The notes below the pieces were generated by a model, which was not told the origin of the DNA, ran no database searches, and saw only the letters and a program-made list of their open reading frames with translations. Shown here piece after piece: positions 24,825 to 64,000 of a stretch of 64,000 nt of DNA. The position numbers were made by a program, and so were the translations under genes. Origin of the DNA: Plumapathes pennacea (lineage: Eukaryota; Cnidaria; Anthozoa; Antipatharia; Myriopathidae); NCBI GenBank assembly GCA_964036295.1, contig OZ038466.1, positions 2,170,001 to 2,234,000 of the forward strand, written 5' to 3'. Each line of letters begins with the position of its first letter. The stretch's first letter is position 1.

Positions 24825-25088
24825 ATGACGAGGAAGACATACAGTGTTTTCGTTTTCCTGGTTTGTGTTTGGTTTGAATCAGGGCTCAATCTTCAAGGAA
24901 GGGCAGACAACTTACGGCAGCAGCATTTGTTCGTGAAACGTCGTGTTCCCGTTCCAGGCGCTCCAAGGCGCCTTCAAGAGGTGACTCGGGATTTTAGCGC
25001 TGCTTCAGACAGCGACAAGGAATATGAAGCAAAGGAAGGGAGATTTCGAAGATCCTTCAATCCAAACACAATGCCAAATGTTAATGAG
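24825..25088 (+). other. SORL1: SORL1 exon 1: signal peptide and propeptide
   Basis: The ATG opens [17 protein letters not shown], a hydrophobic signal sequence. A basic propeptide follows, ending with EGRFRR before SFNPN. R-F-R-R fits the furin rule R-X-K/R-R, matching the known removal of the SORLA propeptide that otherwise blocks the VPS10 cavity. The exon ends in phase 0 at GAG before GTAAGT. Confidence 0.85.
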
Positions 25089-34000: not shown

Positions 34001-37000
34001 CTTCTGATGAATTTGTAGGTGTCAAATACTAGCTGTGCATGATACTTGATACTGGAAGAAGAATTCAAAAGTGAATATGATTGACCAAAACCGCAAGCAC
34101 AGTTGTCAACAAGTTAAGTGTATCAGATTTCCCTAAAATTTATTTAACTTGAAACTCAGCCAAAAGAAGACATAGTTTTTATTGCGCACGTATTTAGTTT
34201 GGATGCAGCCCAGGCTGGAATATCATGGTCTCTGATAAATATTGAGGTGTCGAAAAAGTCACGGATAGGCCTTTTTTTCTTTGCCGGCTTGGGAAGTCCC
34301 GTCACGGTTCAGAGTACTAAATGATTGCCGCAGTGTTTTGGAGATAAATCTAAATTCTCTCATTTCGAGCACCACATATAGTTTTCACCCTCTGCCGCCT
34401 TATAAATGAAGGGTTTTTAAAACTAAGACTTGTTCGAATACTCAGTTTAGCAAAAGTGGAGGCCCGCAGAAACGGTTCCGAACTTCCACACTCCAAAAAT
34501 TGAGCAAATTATAAAATGTGACCTTAAGCCGCAAAAGTAACTTTCACAAATTCGCGAGCTTAGAGCTGCCTTGCTGCTTTGATTTGCTGTTTTCAGTCCT
34601 TTTTAAAAAATATTCGAAAAAATTGTTTTATTGTTATATAGCAATGCCAATCCCAAACTAACTTTTGCAAACAATTATCAAATTTGTCTCTGCCTCATTA
34701 AATAGTAGAAAAGTATACCCAGGCTAGCAAGTGCCGGCGAAACCTATCGATTGACAAGAAATAGGCGACCTTTCAGCGGTGACGCTGGTTTGATTATGAT
34801 ATTCAGTGGAAATTAGTGATTCTAATCATGTGACTACTCCAGAAGAAAGCAGGAAATCTGATTGAGGAGGTCGGCAAGGTTTGTACACAGTAGTTACAGA
34901 CTTACGGATTGTTTATGCATTTCTGGAGTGTGATTATGGGTTTCTTCCGTGTACCACAAGGTAATCGGACACGAACACGGGAATCGGAACGGAAACTTGC
35001 TGAATAAGAACAATCAGTAAATTTTCCAGGCTACAGTAGACCGAAGTCAAATGTGACCAGAAGTATTGAAACAATCTCCGTTGTTTTCACTCAACAGGCA
35101 GTCCGTGCAGTGCCGATGACTACAAGCAGTGGATTCCCTCACATGTAGTTAACGGCACGTGTCTGTTGGGAAGCAAAACCGTGTACGAGCGCCGGATTGC
35201 ACATGCGCGCTGCTTCAATGGTTATGATTACGATCGACCCATATCACAACAGGGCTGCCCGTGCTCCAGAGAGGATTTTGAGTGGTAGGTGACTTTGCCA
35301 CAGCAAGTAAAATATGTGAAAAAGTGAAAACTACTGCTGCTCTTTCATGTGGTGTATTTTTTGTTTCATTTTGTTCATCCAGTGTTTTGTCTGTAACTTG
35401 TTTCATTTTGCTTTCGTTTTTCTTTTCCTTCCTTGTATTTTGTTTCTACTTTGTAGCCGAGTTGCTCTTTTATAGTTATTCTGCCCTTCATTTGTCTTGT
35501 CTCTCGTTCTGCTTCTGTAATCACTGTTGTACTTACAGTGTTGCTTTAGCTGTGTATACAGAGCATTGACCTTGTATTTTGACTGATGAAAATGGTTCCT
35601 ACATGCATGCACATTCAGTAAAAGAATTTTGTGTATTTATGAGTACCGGAAGTTTGGTATCCAAGTAAGACTGGAGTCTTTTCTACTACATGCTTATGCT
35701 GTACTACGGATAGCAGTAAACGCACATCTGAATAAATTAAACGAAACACGACTGCTTATGGTGGTAACTTCCAGTTACTGAGGCAGTTCGAACCTGATGG
35801 CATCACTGTTGTTTTGAAGTAATGTGGAGTTTTATTGTTTTGTAGTGATGTGGAGTTTTGTTGTTTTGTAATGATGTTTTGTTGCAGTGATTTTGAGTTG
35901 TTTACCTGTTTTATTGTGATGTGGAGTTTTGTTGTTTTGTAATGATGTTGAATTTTTTGTTGTTTTGTAGTGATGTTGAGTTTGTTGTTTTGTAATGATG
36001 TTTTGTTCCAGTGATTTTGAGTTGTTTTGTTGTTTTGTGATGTGGAGTTTTGTTGTTTTGTAATGATGTGGAGTTGTTTTATTGTTTTGTAGTGATGTGG
36101 AGTTTTTTTGTTTTGTAATGATGTTTTGTTCCAGTGATTTTGAGTTGTTTTGTTGTTTTATTGTGATGTGGAGTTTTGTTGTTTTGTAATGATGTTGAGT
36201 TGTTTTGTTGTTTTGTAGTAATGTGGAGTTTTGTTGTTTTGTAATGATGTTGAATTGTTTTGAAGTGATGTTGAGTTGTTTTGTTGTTTTGTAGTGATGT
36301 GGACTACAGACTGAGCTTTGGTGGTGAGTGTTTGTGGGATCCATCAGCAGGAACTCCCACCTTAATACCTCCAGTTTGTCCCCCAGGAACCACCTACTTG
36401 AGGACCAAAGGGTGAGGCTTTCACTTCAGATGTCTTGTTATTGTTACAATTTTACAGCATCTAAATTAAAACTAACAGTTCTGCATCATCGTGCCACTTT
36501 TCTACTTTTTGTCGACCTTTGTCTTTCCTTCGTTCTTGTCTTTGTCCTTTTTGTTTATTTAGCTTTTGATTTCCCTTACCGAATAATGATTTTTGGTGGA
36601 GGAGGGGACAAATCTGGAAAGAAATCGGACCAAATATGAAAATGTGATACGAAAATGACTATCAATATACCACGGAGCAAAGAATCCGAAAGCTTTGTTA
36701 TTATTGGAATTGGAAAGAATGGAGAATGAAGGGAAGTTGAAGTTTTTGGGGCATCTAGTTTGTAATTAATGTTTCTCTTTTCTTGAAAGTTATCGCAAAG
36801 TGTCTGAAGACATGTGCGCGGGGGGTGATGAAGATCGCTACGCCAAACAGACCACCTCGTGTCCTATTCCAGGTACTGTCAACTTGTAGTGGACACAAAA
36901 CACTCCACGCAGTCAAGCAAAACCATTCACTCTGTTCTGAACTGATCGAAAAGAGCTAGAAGCCTACACTACAGCTAGAAGTTGATATTTGTTATCGCAT

Positions 37001-44600: not shown

Positions 44601-47600
44601 GGGATGCATGTTAAGCTGTTCACGTCCACCGTAACAATTCAGCGTGGAAAAAGAAAGTGAATATTCTTATTTCCTGTTCGTGGTATACCTGAAAACTAGC
44701 TAGAGTATTTCCACGTTAAGCATACAATTTACATTTACATTTTTTTACATCATTGTTTACTTCTCTCAGTTATGGGCGTTGTCGGAGTTTTGACCGGATT
44801 CTCTCCCTTTTGCTCGTTCGTTTCTTTGTTGTTTACTTCCTTCTCTTCTCTTTCTGTTCTTCTTTGTAGCTGTTTTAATCTCCCTTAGTTCATTAGTTTC
44901 ACCCTCTTCTTTCTTACCGTCTTGCCCAGCTACGACCGCCAGACCGCGCACTTGTTCAGTCATTGATTACATGTGCCGAAATGGCGAGTGCATCTCAAGG
45001 TCGTACCATTGTGATGGCCGCCGCGACTGTAATGATGGTTCTGATGAGATTGGCTGTGGTAAGGGAATTGCTATCTTCCAACAGTGCAGTCCCAACGCTT
45101 AGTTTCCTAAGTAGTTGTGACGTATGTTGTATGTGTTTTTGCGTCTTGTGTTTGTGTTTAGGTCCAGTCACGCCAACTGCCTGTCCAGGTTCCGTGAGTG
45201 TTGTATTTGTATTTAGGTCCAGCCACGCCGACTGCCCGTCCAGGTTTCCTGAGTGTTGTGTTTTGTATTCAGGTCCAGTCACGCCGACTGCCCGTCCAGG
45301 TTTCCTGAGTGTTGTGTTTTGTATTCAGGTCCAGTCACGCCGACTGCCTGTCCAGGTTTCCTGAGTCTTGTGTTTTGTATTCAGGTCCAGTCACGCCGAC
45401 TTCTTGTCCAGGTTTCCTGTGTGACAGGGGCACGTTGTGTTTGCCATCTATCAAGCGCTGTGATGGTCACGCAGACTGTAGGGATGGAACCGATGAAACC
45501 ACCTGCGGTGAGAGCCCCACATAACTAGACATCATGTATTAAACGGCGAGCTTGAATTATCGTGACACATTTTTTTTTTACCGCAAGGGAAGCGAAACTA
45601 AAGCGTTTTATATTAGCTTTATTAGAGACTGTAGAACACTTATTTGAAACCTCACTCAACTTAACAGGTAATCAAAATGAATGTGTGATCAAAAGGAGCT
45701 TGATGACACCCAAGGCCCATGGTTGGTGTCATGGGGCATTGTAGAAAAGGAAGAAAGAGGCGCGCGTGGGACGACGGGAAGAGGGACGGGGCGGGAGCCT
45801 CGGCTTCTTTTCTCTCCTTCTCCCTTCTCACAATCCCACGCGCACGTACACTGAGAAACCTAGAGGTGGAACACTTAGGTTGCTGCTTGTTCATTGCAAA
45901 AAACACTGCCGCGGCTAGTGCCGATATACAACTTGATATGTGTCCATTGCAACCTAATTCTAGTTTAGTATTTAATATTTAATTATTTGCACTTTCCAGA
46001 CTCGTTGAAAGTGACCGGACTGTATGTATTGAGTACGACTGGTCAGTCCGTCTATCTCTCATGGACACCCGTGTCGGTAGCGCTTCCAGGAATGATCATC
46101 ATAGGGCACAGGATCACTTATCGGACCACCAGAGACCACTCGAATCCGATAATTAACGCGCCCTGGAAGACAAAAGACGTTAGGTCTTTGAATTACGCTG
46201 CCATCGACGGTCTGCAGCCGTGTTCAGAGTATGAACTCCGCGTGCAAGTCCGTACTTCTGCACTTGTTGGGCCGCCCACTGATGCCGTGAAGGCCACCAC
46301 TCAATTAGTCAGTAAGTAGCTGATGGTTCTGTTTATCAAGGATCGCGTAGCGGACTGGGGCTACGAGGCAACGTTTCTTTCCAGGGTTGTTTTCTCTGTA
46401 TGATTATCGAATGGCTGGCAGTTGCAGTCGCGCAATCTGCCCCGAGTTCTTTCGCTGCTATTGAGGGGAACATGCTGAAATACAAGGAACTGTTTAACGT
46501 TTCAAGCTGTGTTAAGTGGCTGTACTACATACTACAGTTGTAGGTATGAGGACATGCAAGCGGGATAGTTTTCAGCACAAACATTCTCCTATCTCTGCCA
46601 TTCTTTTGTTATTTGACTGTAAAGCAATGCGCGCGTGTTGAATAGATTCGTGACAAAGATTTGGTGATGCATGTGTTGTAAAACTATTTTCTATTTGTTT
46701 TACTGTTTCCTTGCCAATACCTCACACAATATATTTTTTCTCTTCCGCAGAAACTAGTGCCCCGTTTGATATCACAACAATAAAGTTGAGTGACCACGCC
46801 CTCAAGATCAACTGGCACTCGCCAACTGTGTTTTGTCGACCAGTCACCAACTACAGGGTCCGGTTATTTTTACTCTTCTGTTTTACGATGCGTCTCTCCT
46901 TTCATCCCTTCCTCCCTTTCTTGCTTCCTCCTTTGATTATTGGATATAAATTTCAGGGATTTCATGGTTTAACTTTAGGACCGAGAGTTGAAACTATATT
47001 TTGTATTTAGTCATGTAAATACATTCAGTAAATGTCGCGTGGCAACGACAGGGAGACATCTGAATGTGTAATGGATTTTAAATAGCTGAATTTTTGCGAA
47101 CTCTTCTATTTCTCTGTCAGATTTACTACCAGAGGGTAGGAGGGATAAGATATGAAAAGTGGACTTCCAATGTCAATGAATACATACTAGATGGGCTTAG
47201 TCCTGGATTTCGATACGATATCACGGTGTGTGAAACCTCTCAATATTTGCTTTACTTCTTTCTTGATTATTGTTTTACTTTACTGTAACTCCTTTCTTGA
47301 TTATTATTTTAATTTACAGTAACTTCTTTCTTGATTATTCCAAAATCTTTGTTTCTTCCAGATCACGGCGTATGACAACATCAATAAATTTGGAACGCCT
47401 TCACAGCTGCATACTGTCACCATACCTAACGTACCAGTTCGCCCATCTGGTGAGTACCTTGACCGACTTCGAACAAACACGAGAATGTCGTTGAGTGAAC
47501 CGTCATTATTTCTACGAAAAACATTTTAATCCTTATTTCTTAGTAAGTGCGGATTACGTCATTTCTAAAAAAAGTACAGTTAGCCCCTTATTTCTCAGAA

Positions 47601-50600: not shown

Positions 50601-51298
50601 ACTAATTCTACTGCTGCTGCTACTGTACTATTCCCATTTTTATACTCTCTTGTTACTGCCACCGTTGTTGTTGTTGTTGTTGTTGTTGTTGCTACCTCGG
50701 TACTGCTAACTGTACTACCGTCATTGTTATTATTGCTTCTGCCACTGTTGCTACCGCAGCTCCTTCTGTACCGCTTGTGCTGTTGTCCTTGTTAGATTGT
50801 TCTTGTGTTGTCCATACAGCGATGCAGCTAAACGCATGAAACTCTTGTTTGCTCAGTATTATAGAATCTCCTGGACCGTCCTAACCAGCCCTGAAAAATC
50901 CGGAAATGCGAAGATTACAGCGTCAACTTACACGATAGATGTTGAGTCTGGTCAGGATTACCTCTATCGTGTGAGCGCTGTCACCACATATGGTGAAGGA
51001 GCTGCCTCCTATATTGATGTTTCTGTTCCTTCTTACTTTGTCCAAGTTCAGAATCTTAAAAGTAGCTTGAACGGTCAAACGCTCACTCTCACGTGGGACG
51101 CACCAAAAGATGAGGACGAGATACATATCGAGGTAGGTTTGTGTTGTGAGTCATAGGGTGCAGATCGTGGAGCGGCGAGCAAAACGCGGCGGAGGGGGAG
51201 GGGGTGAAATGGAAGGAGAAAACGACTACCGTACTTCTACTTTCCCTTTTTGCCCCCCTCCCCCACTGCAGTTTTCTGCCCTCCATCCAAAAACCTGC

Positions 51299-51376
<78 letters not shown>

Positions 51377-54300
51377 GTCTATCTGTCTGTCTGTCTGTCT
51401 ATTCTAAGTTTCCTTGATAGTACTCATTCAACCTTTGAAATTACAAAGATAAATTCCTCTGAAGTGTTGAAATTTTTACGATGTGTGTACAGTTTAGATA
51501 CGAACGAGGATTCTCTTTTGTTTTAGTACTACCAGGTGTCCTGGTGCCACGATTGCAGCGTGTGGAACGGAAACAGCAGCCGAGTGCCAGCGAGTCAGAC
51601 GTCCTTCAGATTACAAGTGGAACGAGGGCTTGAATATCAGATTGCCGTCAAGCCCAGGTTGACGGACGGACTCGGAACAGCAGTCGAACTAAACATTACC
51701 GTACCGTCCATCAAAGTTAAGGTGCAAAACTTACGGGGCAGCTTGGGCCGGTATCAGAACAGTGTCATCCTGTCGTGGAATTCTCCACGGGCATCAGATT
51801 TGCCGTCATCTTGTCCAGTGCAAGTAGGTTGTGCGACAGTGTGGCAATTCTCCTCTTTCCTCTCCCCCTGTGTCATTTTACTTCTATGACACGCAGATTT
51901 AGCAATCAAATCCCCCCCCCCCCCCCCCCTTCTGTCTGTCTGTTCAGTTTAGCAATTCTCCTCCTCTCTTTTTAGGCGACCATCGCAGTTAGAGCAGCAC
52001 TTGTTTTTATGGTTCGTACATTATTGAAAGGCGCTTGGATATGCTCAATTTGAGCAGCAGTCCTTGGAAAGATGATAAATCGACCAGACCAGCTTAAGTC
52101 AATCCAGAAATGAAGGAGCTGATAATGTAACCCTAGTTACCAAGTCAACCGCCTTTCGAAAAACAGCATGATAGAAAACCGTTCAGGTGCAGTCAGTCGA
52201 GGAGAAACTTTGAAATAGCTTTGTGTCCCAGAAAAATGAACATTGGCCTCAAAATTAGATTTAGATTTGAAGATTTTAAGTAATTTTAAGTAAATTATTG
52301 CAGTAGATATCACAGCTCTCTACCCTTCTGTTGGTTGTAACCTTAGATAATGATTTGGTCATTTCATCTTTTAACGTTTAGGAATACGAGATAACGTATT
52401 CATGTACTGCTGGATACGTGGCTCACTGCTACTGGTCTTATCTAGAGACCACGAGAACAAACGAAACAAGAATCACCATCAACATGACTCGCTATGACAT
52501 GGTCTATGACTTCAAAGTGCGCCCAGTCACTCCTTGTGGTAAGGGACAGGCATCCCAAGTTATTATAAAGATTCCTACTGTTCCTTCTTCAAACATTGAC
52601 GACCTTCAATGCAAGGGAAGCGGCAATGAAATAACAGTTACCTGGAAAGCGCCAGGGCCATATTTCCCAGTGCAGTTCTTTTTCGTAAGTGCTTTTGGTA
52701 AAACCGTTTTCTTGTAGTGTTCCTTGTGGTATGTTCCTTTGTCTGTTTTATTCACTTTGTTACGTTTCCCCTTTTTTCGCAGCGCTACGATATCCAGTAC
52801 CGTTGTAGAGAGTGCTTGCGCCACTGGTGGTACTACGAATCAATACGATACTTCAACCACACCATCTACCAATTTTATGGGGAACCAGGAAATACTTATG
52901 ACGTGAAAGTGCGAGCGAGCACCTGGTATGGCTCAGGAATGTTTGTGCAGTGCAACATTACAACTCCAGCCCTCCCAGTCAAGGTGAACAACTTCACATT
53001 ATCGACAAAGGGCGGCACGACGACTTTCTCCTGGGAGAAACCTTCTACCATGAAAGGAACGTTTAAGGTACGCAGGAATGTAGGAATTATGGGCGAAGAG
53101 CGAGCGTTGTATGAGGAATATTTCTTTGGCGTGCATCAGAACAACAGCGCCAGAATAACATGTGAAGAAACCACGAGCCATGTGCAGTTGAATTTGATTT
53201 TTTTAAAATTGGTTCCGTTGTACACCACTACTTTATTACACTACAAGTCACGCACGAAAGCATATAGTGTCCATCCTTCTTTGAAGCAGCAGATACACAC
53301 GAAAAACTTTAATCTATGATTAGCAAGCTTTCAGAAAACATGTTTCTTTTTTTTACTAGAAATATATGTAAGGCCGGCGCGCAAAATGGGTTTGATTGCA
53401 TGTCGTTCCCAAATGTACATTGTATTCTGATGCTTGACCAATAGAGCCCGCGGTAGGCGGTGGGTAGCATTTTCCGCTTCTCGTGTTAAAAATCGAGCGC
53501 TGGACTACTGCTATCAATTCAGTAAGCATGTAACAAGTGTATCTTACAAGTTGGACCATCCTTTTAAACGGAATCTGCAAAACCGTTCAAATACAGGTCC
53601 CAATGCGTAACTACAACAGTATTGGTATTGGGTTCAATTGTTACTTTCCGGCAGGTGTGCTCTCTTCAAATAACCTTGGCTGTGTCTCTCTGAAACATTT
53701 GCGACTTGCAAATGTTTCATTGCATTGGCCCCTGATCCCGGTTTACCTAAATCGTGCTCTGAACTGTAGTGTGTGAAGTACTAGCTGCTCATGTTTCTTG
53801 TATCCAGTTACTCGAGCTCTTATCTTTTTCTCTCGTCAGTTCTATAACCTGATATTGACTTGCACTAACTGCGCCTGCGACCGGTCGCTTCAGACAATCG
53901 TAGTAAAAGGTAAGAAAACAAAATGTTATTTCACCACAGAATATAGCTGCAGGAAAATGCAATCTTTAAAAGTGTTGTTTCAGGTGTAATGTTAATTGGT
54001 GGATTCTGAGTTTCTCGTTTGCATCGGTCTCACAACGAGGTCTATTACTTATCATCGAAATTTAGTTTTACGAAAAGTGCTCTCCCACCCATAGTCCTTT
54101 TGGTATCAAAACCAGTCATCCAGATTTGAACAGTGCCCATTGGATCGAGTTCGTCTGTAAATATTCGTTTTTCTGCAAGTCTGACGTAAAAGGCAGTAGA
54201 CCCCTCTGGAGGGCACAACAACAAGGTATTTTTGACTTGAAAAATATATATTAATTCCCATAGAAAAAAGGTGTATTCGGGCGAGTTGTTCAGGCAGTGT

Positions 54301-55732
54301 GTGGTCGTAAGTTATGGTGAAAATACTTAGTCTTTTTGTTGTTATTGACCTTTTTTTGTGCGTATGTTTTATCTTGATATCAGGTACCTCATTTGCAAAG
54401 GAGTTCCCGCGCGGGAACCGTTACAAGGCGGAAGTGGTTGTTGTGACTGGTGGGGGCTCGGGTGAGAAGGCTACGGCCAGTTTTTACTTGGATCCGGCGG
54501 CTGACCTTCAGGTCCAGCAGCTCAAAGTCGTTGCAAAAACATCGTCCGACCGCTTGGTCACATGGACGGCCCCTGCTAACAAAAATATCCAGGTAAAACC
54601 AAAAGTTAGCTTGTCGTGTCGTGTCGTGTCGTGTTGTGTCGTGTTGTGTCGTGTCGTGTCGTGTCGTGTCGTGCCGTTCTACTGTACTATGTCGTCCTAT
54701 GTCATATACGTCATGCATGTTGTACAGGTCTATCCTGTTTAATGTCTTGTGTCGCCGTGTTTGCAGAGTTACCGGATACAAGTGTTGGATATTGCCGAAA
54801 AGAAGTGCATCGTTAATATGAACATCGGGGAGACACACTTCCTAATCAAGAATGAGGATTTAACTGTGAACCATACTTATAACGTGACAGTCTGTGCTGA
54901 TGCAGGGGAGGGGTTAGGAGAGTCTCAAGTTGTCTTGTTCTTTCAAACTTCCGGTAAGTTCGGTTCCTTTGTTTGTTGCTACTACAACTCATAGCTCAGA
55001 CCCAGTTTGCTATGTAACGGATTTTTCATATACGGTGATGTCTGTTTTCGGTTAACTTGACAACTTGGACGTCTTGCCTGAAACAAGGGACCGTTTTTAT
55101 TTGTGTTTCTTCAGAGAAGGTTACTAAAATGTCTTGTTTCTGCAGTGCCTGCTACATCTGAGCCCATTCACGGCAAGCAAACCGGCAGTAAAACGTCAAA
55201 CGCGGTAGTGTGGGCGGTGCCTGTGGGTGTAGTGGGGCTGCTGCTGATTGTAGCGCTGATATACTTCATCACTCGCACTCGTCGCCTCGAGCGATCCATG
55301 TACGTCATGTTGCACCGCACCTCAGACCGCGAAGAGGAGGTCAGCTTTCACGTAGGTGAGACGGCCTGGTTACTCAGCATTGGATTTATTAACCCTTTCA
55401 CTCCCAAGCTCATAATACAAATTCTCCCAACCTTTCAAGAAGAAAATATGAGTGATGTAGTGAGAATTGATAGTCTAATCAGCTATAATCTAGACAGTAT
55501 CAAAAGCCAAGTTCTCCGTACTGTATGATATATTAGTGCTGCTGAAACTGAAGGAGAAAATTGAACTTGATCAGGGTTAAATAAACTAACGTTTTTACAA
55601 TTGGCTAGGGTTAAGGAAGTTGGAATCATGGCTTTTCAATAAATCAATTTGTACTGGCTTGTCATTGCAGATGAAGATGATGATCCCATCATACTGGACT
55701 TTTCCGACGATGAACCGCTTCTCACAGCTTGA
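24825..55732 (+). CDS. SORL1: SORL1/SORLA sortilin-related receptor, complete, 50 coding exons
   Basis: Joining 50 exons gives a 7941-nt frame (2646 aa) with no frame break. Exon 1 is 24825-25088; the others are listed in the domain blocks below. Order: signal peptide, propeptide, VPS10 plus 10CC, YWTD propeller, EGF, 10 LDLa, about 11 FN3, membrane span and acidic tail. This order is unique to SORLA and the related Hydra head-activator receptor. Vertebrate SORLA is a type I receptor that shuttles cargo between Golgi, endosome and surface using GGA, retromer and AP adaptors. The protein is about 430 aa longer than human SORLA (2214 aa), mostly from extra FN3 domains. The LDLa exons are all phase 1-1. 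Introns are GT-AG, except a GC donor after exon 7. A second copy begins at 58953. Confidence 0.93.
25583..25830. mobile_element. 248-bp insertion in SORL1 intron 1 with 6-bp target duplication
   Basis: ACAATT occurs at 25577-25582 and again at 25825-25830. The right-hand SORL1 copy reads GTGGACAATTTTCTCT without interruption near 60017-60032, so it preserves the empty site. No inverted repeats, poly(A) or coding capacity were seen, and the class is unknown. Confidence 0.7.
26394..27362. mobile_element. piggyBac-like non-autonomous element (969 bp) in SORL1 intron 2
   Basis: Terminal inverted repeats CCCATTCGCTCC and GGAGTGAATGGG are flanked by TTAA (26390-26393 and 27363-27366). The right-hand SORL1 copy has a single TTAA in the same context (AATGCCCGCTTAAACTTTG, 61976-61994). 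That is an exact empty site and is diagnostic of piggyBac insertion. The interior has no transposase frame, so mobilisation would need an enzyme supplied in trans. Confidence 0.85.
31756..32007. mobile_element. Harbinger-like MITE in SORL1 intron 12
   Basis: Inverted ends GGCCGCGTTCACACTTGGTG and CACCAAGTGTGAACGCGGCC are flanked by TAA on both sides (31753-31755 and 32008-32010), the target size of PIF/Harbinger elements. The interior contains further hairpins such as CTCGGGCAC. It is non-coding. Confidence 0.8.
33040..34840. other. SORL1 intron 13: repeats, no gene
   Basis: A stretch near 33080-33300 has the palindrome CCCGGTTAACCGGG and inverted pieces TTCATATGAG, probably an old MITE. At 33868-34260 a block of about 190 bp is duplicated (GAAACTCAGCCAAAAGAAGA, TTTAGTTTGAATGCAGCCCA). 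The frames in this intron lack family features. Confidence 0.5.
35814..36294. repeat. Minisatellite made of exon 15 splice-acceptor-like units
   Basis: An array of T/G-rich units of about 20-25 bp (TTGTTGTTTTGTAGTGATGTGGAG and variants) fills the last 480 bp of intron 14 and runs into exon 15. The exon begins at 36295 with TGATGTGGA, directly after TTGTTTTGTAG. TGTAG followed by TGATGTGGA or TGATGTTGA also occurs at about 35841, 35966 and 36089. CCAG/GCAG followed by TGATTTTGAG occurs three more times. The minus-strand frame across this array is a repeat artefact. Confidence 0.9.
36998..37316. repeat. CACGCA/CACTCA-rich simple array in SORL1 intron 16
   Basis: About 320 bp of imperfect ACGC, ACAC and ACTC tetramers (CGCGCACGCACGCAC, CACTCATTCACTCAATCG). 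Its Arg/Thr/His reading frame is an artefact of the repeat. Confidence 0.9.
37468..39532 (+). other. SORL1: SORL1 exons 17-20: YWTD beta-propeller
   Basis: Exons 37468-37662, 38040-38235, 38729-38930 and 39343-39532 (residues about 731-991). YWTD-type motifs per blade: [40 protein letters not shown] and MYWDDWSS, with WPNGIS and [10 protein letters not shown] between blades. In LDL-receptor relatives this propeller binds or releases ligand in a pH-dependent way. Spacing and order match SORLA blade by blade. Confidence 0.9.
37850..37995. mobile_element. Degenerate MITE (family B) in SORL1 intron 17
   Basis: ATCCTTTAACCTCCAAGAG, TTCAGTTTCTCCCCAG, AACTTGGCTTTT and AACAGCTGATCGACTAGCAA resemble the interior of 16747-16947. 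The ends are worn and no clean TTAA pair remains. Confidence 0.45.
39952..40131 (+). other. SORL1: SORL1 exon 21: EGF-like module
   Basis: Sixty residues, starting [16 protein letters not shown], carry cysteines in the EGF-like pattern that closes the propeller in SORLA. The exon is phase 1 at both ends. Confidence 0.85.
40228..40690. mobile_element. Foldback element with telomere-like core, SORL1 intron 21
   Basis: Ends TATAGTACGTATTCC (40228) and GGAATGCGTACTATA (to 40690) are inverted. Inside, arms of about 140-170 bp contain mirrored copies of TATTTGCTCATCAGGG, CCAGGTATTTGCTCGTCCGG and GCTAATTATTATTCAA. The unpaired centre (about 40437-40505) is imperfect GTTAGG/TTAGGG repeats. A TA target duplication is possible at the tips. 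No coding capacity. Confidence 0.75.
41661..41695. repeat. (GA)n microsatellite
   Basis: An uninterrupted GA run of about 34 nt in intron 23. Confidence 0.9.
42351..42452 (+). repeat. Tandem duplication of the exon 25 donor region
   Basis: GCTGTGTCT then GTAAGTTTACAGGCCATGAG (from 42351) recurs 62 bp later as GCTGTATCT then GTAAGTTTACAGGTCATGAG (from 42413). The copy therefore contains a second full 5' splice site (at 42422), just inside intron 25. Use of the downstream donor would add 62 nt and shift the frame. CCCTAACCCTAACC lies between them. Confidence 0.85.
43559..43800. mobile_element. Non-autonomous element (family A), copy 2, SORL1 intron 27
   Basis: Shares with 11711-12069 and 58122-58455 the pieces GTGGTGTGGACTCTTATTTA, GAGTCCACAGCATTTTGACC, GACGCCAGCATGTCACA and CAACGAAATACAACGAA. 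It is flanked by CGAGAAACTAGTG-type sequence also found at 58427-58440. Non-coding. Confidence 0.7.
44500..44660 (+). mobile_element. tRNA-derived SINE in SORL1 intron 29
   Basis: The sequence has a pol III A box (GGTGGCCGAGCGGTTAG, about 44505-44521) and a B box (GGTTCGATTCC, 44550-44560) spaced as in a tRNA gene. The anticodon and acceptor stems do not close well, and a non-tRNA body follows (GAGCTTACCCTCCGTCC onward). That is the structure of a tRNA-derived SINE rather than a working tRNA. The 3' end is not sharply defined. Confidence 0.6.
45160..45384 (+). repeat. 56-bp tandem repeat copying the exon 31 acceptor
   Basis: Four imperfect units precede exon 31, with exon-like starts at 45162, 45217, 45273 and 45329 and the real exon at 45385 (spacing 55, 56, 56, 56). 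Each unit carries TTTGTATTCAG (or TTTAG) followed by GTCCAGTCACGCCGACTGCC, that is a polypyrimidine-poor acceptor plus the first exon bases. The real exon reads [14 protein letters not shown]; upstream units read [14 protein letters not shown] and then run out of frame. Confidence 0.92.
48590..48850. repeat. GTGTTGTTTGGTCGTG minisatellite in SORL1 intron 37
   Basis: About ten imperfect units related to TTGGTGTTGTTTGGTCGTG. The Thr/Pro/Gln-rich minus-strand frame is a repeat artefact. Confidence 0.85.
49676..49862. repeat. GTT-rich and GGAA/GGGA-rich tracts, SORL1 intron 39
   Basis: A (GTT)n stretch at 49676-49722 is followed by a purine-only stretch of GGAA and GGGA repeats at about 49780-49860. 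Low complexity; no gene. Confidence 0.85.
50508..50765. repeat. Trinucleotide (CTG/CTA, GTT) repeats, SORL1 intron 41
   Basis: GCTGCTGCTGCTACTGCTAC at the left and a pure GTT run near 50663-50693, with imperfect CTA/CTG units between. Confidence 0.85.
51298..51401. repeat. (CTAT)n / (CTGT)n microsatellite, SORL1 intron 42
   Basis: About 20 CTAT units followed by several CTGT units. The Ser-Ile-Tyr-Leu frame is an artefact. Confidence 0.95.
54612..54674. repeat. (GTGTC)n pentanucleotide repeat, SORL1 intron 47
   Basis: About 12 units of GTCGT with a few GTTGT variants, 20 bp after the exon 47 donor. Confidence 0.92.
55146..55732 (+). other. SORL1: SORL1 exons 49-50: membrane span and sorting tail
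   Basis: Exon 49 (55146-55355) encodes a short stalk, a hydrophobic span of about 23 residues (2576-2598) and [18 protein letters not shown]. Exon 50 (55671-55732) encodes a final acidic 20-residue segment ending SDDEPLLTA and the stop TGA. DEPLL fits DXXLL, the GGA VHS-domain signal, aligned with DDVPMVIA of human SORLA. YVML fits YXXphi for AP complexes and sits where human SORLA has the retromer motif FANSHY, which is not seen. Tail length is about 48 aa, slightly shorter than the human tail. Confidence 0.88.
55393..55576. mobile_element. piggyBac-like MITE (family B), copy 2, in the last SORL1 intron
   Basis: Starts CCCTTTCACTCCC after TTAA (55389-55392) and ends ATCAGGG before TTAA (55577-55580). 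The interior matches the reverse complement of 16747-16947 (GTAGTGAGAATTGATAG, AAAAGCCAAGTTCTCC, AAACTGAAGGAGAAA). 184 bp, non-coding. Confidence 0.75.
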
Positions 55733-58905: not shown

Positions 58906-58952
58906 CTTTCCGTACCAGTTTGCATGCAAGTTTATACTTTTGAAATGCCAAA

Positions 58953-61900
58953 ATGACGAGGAAGACATGCAGTGTTTTCGTTTTCCTGGCTTGTGTTTGG
59001 TTTGAATCAGGGCTCATTCTTCAAGGAAGGGCAGACAATTTACGGCAGCAGCATCTGTTCGTGAAACGTCGTGTTCCCGTTCCAGGCGCTCCAAGGCGCC
59101 TTCAAGAGGTGACTCGGGATTTTAGCGCTGCTTCAGACAGCGACAAGGAATATGAAGCAAAGGAAGGGAGATTTCGAAGATCCCTCAATCCAAACACAAT
59201 GCCAAATGTTACTGAGGTAAGTTGTGGCTAGTTTCTCCTCGTGGGACTTCTTTGCCCGAATTGTGTTGTGTAGAGAAGTGTGTATACGTGCACTTTCGCT
59301 TTGAATAAAAATACGTTTGAAATTCGATGAACAGACATGAAGGTGTTAAGGTACGTATACCCTTTCATTTTGGCAGTGAAAAACAGGCTTTGGACAAAAC
59401 AGCTCTTGTTGTTTTTCTGAAAGCCGCTTTTTGTTTACCATTAAATATGTCGAATTCGTTTCTTGATGGTTGAGCTACTGCGTGCTTAAGGCTGGTTCAC
59501 ACGGTAAAGCAAGCGCAAACGCAAGCGCAAGAGAATGAAAACTTTTCCATTCTCTTGCGCTTGCGTTTGCGCTTTCTTCACAAATTTTACCATGTGAACC
59601 GGTCGCTTGCGCTTGCGTTTGCGTTTGCGCTTGCGCTTGCTTTACTCGTGTGAACCAGGCTTTACAGGTAGCAGAAATTACCTTATCGATAGCTTTGTCA
59701 CGTCTGTAGTCTGATTTTTCTTTTATTATTGACAAGTAACTACACTCCAGATATCGAATTTGCGAGCTGAAGTGAAGTCATGTTTCGACCTACTCACTGT
59801 ATTTCCGTGTTCGTAGACCGTAGTGTATCTTGATGGAGTCGACAGACTGTTTACAAGTTTAGATGTCCAATAGTTTTCTGCACTGTACCTTTTGAAATTT
59901 TGTTTTAGTTACTACGGTAAGATTATGTCAAATTATGAGTCTTTCAGTTTATTACGTACCACTAAAGTAATGATATTGCTGTTCTTCTGTAAATATTATG
60001 CATATAATGGCCTCAGTGGACAATTTTCTCTACAGAAGTGTTGTCTTTTTTTTTATATATACTTTGTAATGGCCAGTTTCGTTTTTGCTTCCCATTGCAA
60101 GCTGCAAAGTAGGGTGAACATCTGCTCTGTTCATGCATTGATCAGCTAAAACTGCACCAATCAGACAACCATGGCATGATGTAAGATTTATTTGTAGCAT
60201 GCAATTTTTTATATTGGAGTTTTGTATGCGCTTGTTTTTTATTTATCTTTTTATTTTTTTACGCCTAGGGTTAGGGCTAGGGTTGGGTTTTGGGTTATGT
60301 TTAGGGCAATTTACTTTTCAGATTGTGAGATATGAATTAAAAATAAATATGCAAATTTTAAAAACTATTATATTGTGCTTTTTAACCTGCTTATGTTTTT
60401 GACTTGTGTACTGCTATTTTGAGCCGTGATGCCAGTTTCCCTTTATTGAGATGATCAATTCTCACTACATCAATCATGCATTTCCTTATTATGATTAAAT
60501 TATATGGGTAGTAATTTATGAACTCAGGGGTAACTTAGGGCCATGGGATTTGGTAATACTTATCTGCTGATAATAAATGCAAAACAGACTGTTTTTGGAT
60601 ATTAATCTCAATGTACAGTATTGTCCAAAAAGATGCTGAGTCATGGTCAATATTACATTACATACAGTAGAGCATTAATTTTATCTAAATTTAGTATTTC
60701 ACTTCTTACCAAAAAATTTATACAACCATGTTGTAAAATATATATACACTGTAGTTTGAGAAATAGTTTGAGCCTGCTCAATTTAAAAACTGATTGAAAT
60801 ACCAATTCTCACACCATCATTCAAGTGTCTTTTTATTGAATGGCTGGGGGAATCTACATGCTGAACTTTACAGTTGTAGGAGTAAGGTGTACCAGGAAGG
60901 TGGTGAAATCCTCCTAGTTGGTTAACAGTTTAGGGCCCAGTTCAGACATTGCTCTTTTCATGCGCCGAACTCAATGAAACTGAGCAAAAGCCATTGTCTG
61001 AACTAATTTGCATTGAGTTAGGCGCATGAAAAGAGTGGCGTCTGAACTGGGCCTAAGTTGTACATTAGATTTTTGAAAATAAAACAGAATAATAGCATAG
61101 TTATAGTAAATATTACAGCATATAGGTGATGTTTTGAGGTTACAACAAGTGTGCAGTATCCATTTTCACATTTCTGTGCAATTGCTGGTTACAAGGTCTA
61201 TCCAATTTTACTGATGTAGCCCTTTTCAATAATTTATTATATTACATTATAGAATATGTTAAAATCTTGGAAGTCTTTAAGTTGCCAACCTGTTTACATT
61301 GTTGCATTGGCATCAACCAAAAATTTAAGTCCCCCTTGATTGCCAAATACTTTTTGTTACTCTAGATTTGTAACCTACTGATAGTGATGTGCCTTTTTTC
61401 TTGTCACAGCTTCATTTGAATGATAGTCATTATCAGGCGTATGTGCACTGGGCGGGTGATCACAGGGACACTATTGTGATGCTTACAAGGGACATACGGC
61501 CCTCAGCAAGTAGCACTAGCCATGTGTGGATATCAAAGGATTATGGACAAAGTTTTGTGAACAGGACAGACTCCTTTACCACCAGTAATAGAAGGCCAGC
61601 CTTGATTAATTTGTTTTATCCATCACCAGTGGTTAACACAAGGGTGAGTACAGTACCGCCTAAATGTAAGTTCCCTTATCGAGCGCACATCGGGCGAGCA
61701 AGTCTCGAGTATCGGGTGAGCGAGTCTCAAGTATCGGGCATAGAGTATCGAGTAATGGGCGAACGAGCATCGGATAACGAGCGAGAAAAGTGATTATCGT
61801 AACAAAGAAAACAAAAGCTTTTTTGTTTGATTGCCAGAGTCCAATGTCAAACTGTCAAATGTCCTTTGTTGCATTGAAAGCAAAAAACAGTCGAGTTATA

Positions 61901-63059
61901 TTACATTAAATAAACAAGACGGACATTTACCAAACAAAAGCTTATAGCCAGCAAAGTGCAGGTTGCATGTTCTATAATGCCCGCTTAAACTTTGTGCCAA
62001 TATTTATGGAGGGTAGGTGCCTAAAGGGTATGTGGTAACCATGGCAACCCCACTACAGTAGGGGGAGAGGAGGGTGGGACAACAAACAGCAAGCTGTTTG
62101 CTGGCATAAGCAGCAAGCAGACTATGTGCTCCGTCAGCATGGGCCACTGACCTGCATTGTCTGGAGACTGCCTGTAAATATTGCATTTAGCCTCAACAAA
62201 ATGGTTGAACTTTCCATTCTATCACTGCTGGGGGAAGGAGGAGGGGAAGGGGTGAGGTGGATTGGTGAGGTAGCTCATAAGAATGGTTTAAGTTAATGTT
62301 CAATACACGCTGTACATAAACCTGTTGTATCTATTGACATTAGTACCTTTTTATTTTTCCCTTTCTTTTCAGTATCTTTTTGTGGACAAGGTAAACAAAT
62401 TGGTCTTCAGCACAGTAGATGACTGTAGCACTTTCTTCAGAAGGCAGGTGGTGTTCACGCCGGATGACATCCTTTTTCACCCAACTAATGAGCAGATTGT
62501 GTTAGCATATGATCAATCAGCGAAAAAGGTGAGATTTAACCAAGCTACTGTGCAACAATATTTTGGCAGCACAGATTATTACTGTCAGTACCTTTGGGTC
62601 CTTCTTTTGTTGGTAGACATCGCAATTTATTACTGATAATGTTTTCAATGTTATCTAAGTCAATATTAAAATTCCTGCAATATTATAATCAATATTATAA
62701 ATGTTTGTTTGTCTGTTGGCAGCTTTATGTTTCACAGAATTTTGGCTTATCGTGGAGCCTGAAGGATGAGCGGGTCAGGACATACTACTGGTAATGTAAC
62801 AGGACTTCAACAGTTGATTAGAGATAGTGACTCTGAAGTTCTACATTGTCCAATGCTATGTTGTAACTTATCTTATTCAACATCTTGTTGGCAAAGAAAA
62901 GGACCAGGGTCTCAATAAGATCATCCTGTGACCATCTTGTGCCTTTACCAAACATTGTTGGCAAGCTTTTACTGAACGTACATGTGTGCTTCTTTCACAG
63001 GGGTATTCCACATGTGGACAACGCAAACACTTTGTACATTGAGAGGGAAGAGCAGTCTG
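58953..63059 (+). CDS. SORL1: Second SORL1 copy, first five exons (partial, runs off the window)
   Basis: Exons 58953-59216, 61410-61643, 62373-62528, 62723-62790 and 63001-63059 correspond one for one to exons 1-5 of the first copy. They have identical lengths (264, 234, 156, 68, 59 nt), phases and splice dinucleotides. They encode the signal peptide, propeptide with EGFRFRR-type furin site (RFRR before SLNPN) and the start of the VPS10 domain. Changes are scattered substitutions (for example LRDSHYQ to LNDSHYQ, VGSTS to ASSTS), with no stop or frameshift, so it looks functional so far. Exon 6 is not found before the window ends; intron 5 homology fades near 63187, where a C-rich repeat starts. 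Whether the copy is full-length cannot be told here. Confidence 0.85.
59489..59661. mobile_element. Harbinger-like MITE in intron 1 of the second SORL1 copy
   Basis: Inverted ends AGGCTGGTTCACAC and GTGTGAACCAGGCT are flanked by TTA (59486-59488 and 59662-59664). The first copy has a single TTA in the same context (GCGTGCTTACAGGTAGC, 25224-25240), so the empty site proves a 173-bp insertion with a 3-bp duplication. The interior is itself a hairpin of GCGCTTGCG/CGCAAGCGC repeats. Confidence 0.88.
60262..60308 (+). repeat. Short telomere-like tract
   Basis: CCTAGGGTTAGGGCTAGGG followed by GGTT/GTTTAGGG variants, in the part of intron 1 found only in the second SORL1 copy. Confidence 0.7.
60933..61054. 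mobile_element. Short hairpin MITE in intron 1 of the second SORL1 copy
   Basis: GGCCCAGTTCAGAC and GTCTGAACTGGGCC are inverted ends; the interior pairs CTCTTTTCATGCGCC with GGCGCATGAAAAGAG. TAA follows the right end and TTA precedes the left, as in Harbinger-type targets, but the exact border is off by a base or two. It lies in about 1.1 kb (60178-61315) absent from intron 1 of the first copy. Confidence 0.7.
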
Positions 63060-63186
63060 GTATGCAAATGAGTGTTTATTCTTACTTGTCTTTACTGAGA
63101 TGGACAATTTATGATATCATGTAGGAATAAAGAGACAACCAGAATGTAAAGATTTTGTTTCCAGTAGATATTCCAATATTGCACAT

Positions 63187-63450
63187 TTTAGGGTTTCTGC
63201 ATACAGGTGTAGTCCCCCTGTGCAAGATTCCCCCTAAAGATACAGTAGTCCCCCCCCTGAACATTGCAGTGATGCACATCTCCAGAGGGTAGTCCTCTGT
63301 TGTGCATGAACCCCACCCCCCCCCCCCCCCCCCCCAGACATAATGCACATGTAGGACTTCCGCTCTTTGTATAGTGCCACCCCTGAAGATGTTCCACAAT
63401 ATGCATGCAGTAGTCCCCCTTTTGCACTAAATGTAGTCCCTTCTTGAGCA
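63187..63450. repeat. C-rich imperfect repeats with poly(C) tract
   Basis: Units related to GTAGTCCCCCTTGTGCA recur about every 50 bp, with a pure C run at about 63313-63335. This occupies intron 5 of the second SORL1 copy where homology to the first copy is lost. From 63450 to 64000 I see only A/T-rich non-coding sequence. Confidence 0.75.
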
Positions 63451-64000
63451 CAGTGCCCCTGAATTATGGGTCATTCTGCAGTATTTTGGACAAAAATATG
63501 AGTAGGAAAAAGTAAACAGCAAGAAGACAAAACTGACATATTTTAAAAGTAGAAGAGTTAAATTGGATTCAGGTGGGCCCAAAAATTTAATCATCATGTG
63601 ACATCATGCATAAATTATCATTATTTATATGCATAACTAAAAAAATGCTGTTACGGAGGGGAAATAAGTTTTATATTCTAAAGGAGGCATTTTAGGAGAA
63701 ATAGAAACCAAGGTGGTAAAGACATAAAGTACTTCATACTAACATTATAAAAAAGTGAATGGAATCCAGAAAAAATTTTCAGCAAAATCCAGAATGCAGC
63801 TAAAGTACCATTTTCCCCTCTGTAACAAATTTTAGTTGGAAAAGTTTATTTTATTCCTAGTGTAGTGTGGCCTAGCATGTCATACTTTGTGAAGTTCCAA
63901 TTTGAAGTGGAAGTGTTCAGATGAGATAACCAGTAAAACTGGACAAAGTTTATTGATCAAAATATTGCAATTTGAAATTTGTTATGGAGAGGAAAATTTT

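Follow-up and report, generated by a model that had tools for sequence, protein, structure and literature searches.

The last part of intron 14 of a SORL1 gene in the window, the 64,000-nucleotide stretch of Plumapathes pennacea DNA analysed here, is a minisatellite whose units copy the acceptor of exon 15 together with the first bases of that exon. The array is best explained as a mirage-type, mostly neutral minisatellite in which mainly the exon-side acceptor is used; we give this reading a probability of about 0.83. A tandem paralogue carries a shorter version of the same array, and a second, unrelated array of the same design enters an LDLa exon of the same gene.

Gene Model and Authentic Acceptor

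The joined exons show their best PDB match to the human sortilin-related receptor (SorLA) 3wsy, with an E value of 7.8e-71 in the VPS10/10CC part, which bears out the earlier assignment of the gene to SORL1. The domain order of SORL1 (SorLA) was found, with VPS10/10CC recognised by the PDB match, LDLa by Pfam search, and YWTD and FN3 by eye. An order-3 coding model, used for ab initio gene finding, returned too many or too few exons, and peptide anchors were used instead. Exon 15 owes its number to such anchors, counted onwards from a start codon near 24825, the model itself joining only exons from 29554 on. The 42-exon anchored model was cut to 39 exons by dropping the first, the last, and a simple-repeat exon at 51272-51388; a few of its boundaries are doubtful, being unmapped or not GT/AG in the paralogue. 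The features that frame the array are as follows (a slash marks a splice junction).

35098..35284, + strand: exon 14, which precedes the array; it ends GAG TG/gtaggt in phase 2 and rests on the anchored gene model, its retention in the paralogue and the Sortilin_C match
35807..36303, + strand: boundary-spanning minisatellite (TRF span), made of 19 intronic units at 35820-36294 and the first 9 nt of exon 15
36266..36294, + strand: last unit of the array; of the branch-point-like motifs, its exon-derived TGAT comes closest to the authentic AG, at a distance of 26 nt
36295..36411, + strand: exon 15, with the authentic acceptor TTTTGTAG/TGATGT (10.9 bits)

The protein alignment to 3wsy is ungapped across the DFEC/DVDYR junction, and splicing to 36295 would therefore yield the normal protein of the family. 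Because of this protein homology the last acceptor (36295) is regarded as the authentic one, and we infer that it is used in splicing.

Structure of the Exon 15 Array

TRF describes the array as a degenerate tandem repeat with a period of 26, 19.8 copies and 64% matches. Unit borders were set by cutting at the exon-start motif; the 19 intronic units so obtained measure 16, 21, 25, 26, 28 or 29 nt and are followed by exon 15 (TGATGTGGAC). The units are modelled on the intron end (TTGTTTTGTAG) and the first nine bases of exon 15 (TGATGTGGA). The 19 upstream junctions read TAA (7), TAG (4), CAG (3), TTG (3) and AAG (2); AG is kept at nine and lost at ten. TAG/TGATGT is exact at 35846, 35971 and 36093, the fourth TAG junction being TAG/TAATGT at 36219, while all three CAG junctions (35888, 36012 and 36135) read CAG/TGAT. 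The earlier note had described units that copy the acceptor and first exon bases ahead of exon 15, at least three further exact TAG/TGATGT junctions, and other units with CAG/TGAT; TRF, unit splitting and shuffles, together with these positions, confirm this picture.

The chance control consisted of 500 dinucleotide shuffles of the intron. The 27-nt boundary recurs 12 times in intron 14 at an identity of at least 78%, against a shuffle mean of 0.008 and a maximum of 1, which excludes a chance origin of the array. Similarly, the exon 9-mer TGATGTGGA occurs in six exact copies in the array vs. a shuffle mean of 0.02. A special RNA structure is not indicated, the fold of the array being equalled or bettered by 94 of 100 shuffles. 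Elsewhere in the genome, matches on C2, C11 and C3 were rejected after reading as T/G- or CA-rich arrays that lack the acceptor-exon unit.

The Tandem Paralogue and Other Sortilins

A second SORL1 gene (copy B) lies in tandem with the first (copy A), its exon 15 being 32,776 bases downstream of that of copy A; it occupies 58944-64000 of the window and continues in L006-L009. Its counterpart of 35284-36411 is C5:2238359-2239187, with the exon 15 acceptor at 2239071. Exon boundaries are mostly conserved between the copies, and 34 joined exons are stop-free in both. Divergence is 55/780 at fourfold sites (7.1%) vs. 184/3688 at codon positions 1 and 2 (5.0%), which suggests that constraint is weak.

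Intron 14 of copy B contains 11 units arranged in 76-nt higher-order repeats (21, 29 and 26 nt), with TAG at six junctions, TAA at four and AAG at one; AG is lost at 4/11. In copy A the longer repeats measure about 124 and 247 nt instead. The copies thus differ in unit number (19 vs. 11) as well as in unit order. The final 76 nt before exon 15 are identical at 73/76 positions between copies A and B, and for a 76-nt unit further inside the array of copy B the identity to the last one of copy A is 74/76, so that the terminal 76 nt are no better conserved than the rest. Since both tandem copies carry the array, it would most simply predate the SORL1 duplication and have changed length in each copy afterwards.

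In the sortilin genes on C6 and C12 the Sortilin_C match breaks at the same position, 98, with introns of 819 and 315 nt, respectively. Neither of these introns contains boundary copies at an identity of at least 78% (best 0.56 and 0.59). The exon starts with TGACATTGG in the C12 gene and, as a candidate start, with TGATTTGGG in the C6 gene, a Cys-Asp start being common to both. The search pattern that located exon 15 of the C6 gene already contained TGAC/TGAT, and the start of this exon therefore adds no independent support. Most simply, bases of the exon were duplicated into the intron, and not the other way round.

Competing Upstream Acceptors

Acceptors were scored with a matrix built from 37 acceptors of the SORL1 gene. 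The upstream AGs tested were those from 35741 on in copy A (n = 26) and from the window-extended position 68701 on in copy B (n = 18). Four of the decoys of copy A are listed below.

35846, + strand: first exonic base of decoy acceptor TAG/TGATGT, 5.6 bits
35971, + strand: first exonic base of decoy acceptor TAG/TGATGT, 11.7 bits; a stop starts 22 nt downstream
36093, + strand: first exonic base of decoy acceptor TAG/TGATGT, 6.6 bits; a stop (TAA) starts 94 nt downstream
36219, + strand: TAG/TAATGT, 10.9 bits, the strong decoy closest to the authentic acceptor, which follows 76 nt downstream

In copy A, where the authentic site scores 10.9 bits, five of the 26 upstream AGs reach at least 9.0 bits (11.7 at 35971, 10.9 at 36219, then 9.6, 9.0 and 9.0), and two of these equal or slightly outscore the authentic site. 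The authentic acceptor of copy B has only 5.5 bits, and three decoys of 10.0 to 10.9 bits exceed it by 4.5 to 5.4 bits. In both copies 76 nt separate the authentic site from the first strong decoy upstream of it, and the junctions in between are weak AAG or have lost the AG. Every tested upstream AG leads to a stop, in 26/26 cases in copy A and 18/18 in copy B, 4 to 106 nt past the acceptor. The earlier note had placed a TAA within about 100 nt of the unit at about 36092, as found here for 36093, and its suggestion of near-identical acceptors that may give non-productive transcripts agrees with the five high-scoring AGs of copy A and with the stops predicted for all 26.

No strict yUnAy motif occurs in the 60 nt before the authentic site of copy A, although it is present at 29/39 acceptors of the gene. 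The nearest similar branch-point motif is GTGAT, 26 nt upstream, which belongs to the exon-derived bases of the last unit.

Repeats at Other Splice Sites

Another acceptor of the gene is repeated in the same manner.

45162..45384, + strand: second boundary array, four units of 55-56 nt that repeat a different acceptor plus the start of an LDLa exon
45385..45507, + strand: LDLa exon entered by the second array; the start at 45412 in the anchored model would lose the first LDLa cysteine

This array is unrelated in sequence to that of exon 15, and the paralogue has three units, one of them recognised by eye. Of its upstream AGs, 5/19 in copy A and 9/18 in copy B are open to the exon end, one and five of them, respectively, being in frame. 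On the donor side, a single 93% copy of the SORL1 donor 42359 lies 63 nt downstream (42422) in both SORL1 copies. A TGTCG pentamer repeat (54612-54677) starts 20 nt past donor 54592.

The splice sites of the 39-exon model were scanned for tandem copies of the 27-nt boundary within 1 kb and compared with random positions in the same genes. Copy A has them at 2/39 acceptors and 1/39 donors, against 70 and 58 of 1000 random positions; for copy B the values are 1/39 acceptors and 2/37 donors against 77 and 93 of 1000. Owing to divergence in its acceptor part, the second array escaped the scan in copy B. Pooled, this gives 3/78 splice sites vs. 128/2000 random positions in copy A and 3/76 vs. 170/2000 in copy B. 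Repeats are therefore not targeted to splice sites, tandem copies being no commoner there than at random positions.

The genome-wide frequency was judged from LDLa exons at 34 loci, with ends set by best score. Tandem copies occur at 3/32 of their acceptors and 3/40 of their donors, all in loci of one C3 cluster and apparently reflecting whole-exon duplication, vs. 109/1360 random positions. Within these small numbers the LDLa exons agree with the lack of an excess at splice sites. At C3:9641000-9645400 (G000) LDLa matches of equal score lie about 970 bp apart, apparently a tandem exon array. In L004, about 60 nt separate the end of a TTTTG-rich array (1500-1910) from TTCTTTTGCAG, a putative acceptor in another gene. 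Between 1094 and 16009 the window also has three long LRR-TIR (Toll-like) reading frames, named by eye, which resemble one another and consist of a single exon each; two of them have a 66-bp repeat.

Origin and Possible Roles of the Array

The tandem array would have arisen as a short segment across the boundary between intron 14 and exon 15 was duplicated again and again, and slippage or unequal exchange may create and turn over its units. Selection on the protein would preserve the exon-side copy while the remaining copies drift. The spliceosome would mainly take the exon-side acceptor, presumably through exon definition, which gives preference to the acceptor closest to the donor of the exon, and stray use of upstream acceptors would give early-stop transcripts that are probably degraded. 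Not all data fit this smoothly. Two decoys that equal or slightly exceed the authentic score in copy A, and three well above it in copy B, do not favour clean splicing. The weak authentic site of copy B is unexpected if the exon-side copy alone is constrained, and the authentic site of copy A, lacking a strict yUnAy, counts against a neutral reading with clean use of the last acceptor.

The same observations could be taken to mean that the array is a splicing regulator, in which decoys compete with the authentic acceptor and the productive fraction of SORL1 mRNA depends on how many decoys there are and how strong they are: decoys match the authentic acceptor in copy A and exceed it in copy B, each one tested brings an early stop, and the copies differ in unit number. 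We consider this unlikely, since known mirages are reported without disturbed splicing, the second unrelated array and the absence of a repeat excess at splice sites point to an undirected origin, and AG is lost at 10/19 and 4/11 upstream junctions of copies A and B, respectively. Of the length-variable regulator proposed in the earlier note, the difference in length stands, as 19 vs. 11 units in two gene copies, whereas a special splicing regulator is not supported: amphioxus mirages are reported to splice regularly, an unrelated array exists in the same gene, and splice sites show no excess over random positions. A more far-reaching proposal, also unlikely, is that the arrays act as evolving rheostats for unproductive splicing. 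The output of productive mRNA from copy B would then be set by decoy number, because its weak authentic acceptor, unlike the strong one of copy A, is outscored by three decoys; each unit carries a branch-point-like TGAT from the exon bases, so every added unit would be a nearly complete 3′ splice site. If true, this would be a heritable brake that varies with array length and could divide roles between the two paralogues.

That the upstream copies are real alternative coding extensions of the exon appears very improbable. Five of the 18 upstream AGs in the second array of copy B stay in frame and without a stop up to the end of the exon, but none of the tested AGs of the exon 15 array (0/26 and 0/18) does so, and the homologous protein continues across that junction with nothing inserted. 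Least probable of all is that the array reflects low complexity by chance or an artefact of assembly. Tandem repeats are easily misassembled, and T/G-rich arrays elsewhere in the genome (C2, C11 and C3) do match weakly; these matches, however, lack the acceptor-exon unit, the shuffle result speaks against chance, and two separate copies of the array have different unit orders. The recent assembly artefact that the earlier note had envisaged is disfavoured because a separate, shorter array made up of the same units precedes the same acceptor in the tandem paralogue.

The locus offers a clean natural test of how the spliceosome chooses among near-identical acceptors. The two paralogues share the same last unit and differ in unit number, unit order and authentic-site strength, and the array-free sortilins of the same genome can serve as controls.

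Comparison with Known Systems

The IFI6 (6-16, G1P3) gene reportedly contains a minisatellite whose repeat units supply multiple splice donors; it resembles the SORL1 array in its many unit-borne splice sites but is on the donor side. Intron 7 of human F7 (factor VII) is described as containing a variable number of 37-bp repeats, each holding a splice site, of which normally the copy nearest the exon alone is used and others are activated when it is weakened (PMC6627357). As described there, it is the mirror case of the SORL1 array, being human, on the donor side and with 37-bp units. Tandem duplication is also described to copy a branch site, polypyrimidine tract and 3′ splice site with exon bases (PMC4974935); in that account a new intron is formed, whereas the SORL1 copies apparently stay inside one intron.

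Judged by its sequence, the exon 15 array appears to belong to a known kind, the mirage, or boundary-spanning minisatellite. Mirages are described as tandem repeats of intron-exon boundaries in amphioxus, in Adh3 and the globins BflGb6 and BflGb9 (PMC3087553, PMC3902484), to which TnC and PGBD5 are added (PMC3902484). The BflGb6 units consist of the 3′ end of the intron and the 5′ part of the exon, with six and three units in two haplotypes (PMC3087553, PMC3902484). Unit sizes of about 10-160 bp are given, and RT-PCR suggested that regular splicing is undisturbed, cryptic use being left possible (PMC3087553). The term "mirage" was met only in lancelet papers in the literature searched. Like the mirages of those accounts, the SORL1 units span a boundary, and their sizes (16-29 and 55-56 nt) lie inside the reported range. 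Between the two paralogues the unit numbers are 19 vs. 11 in the exon 15 array and four vs. three, the three by eye, in the second. Unlike the amphioxus cases as described, two unrelated arrays occur here in one gene, and both are present in two tandem paralogues. Found in a non-lancelet genome, mirages would extend beyond cephalochordates.
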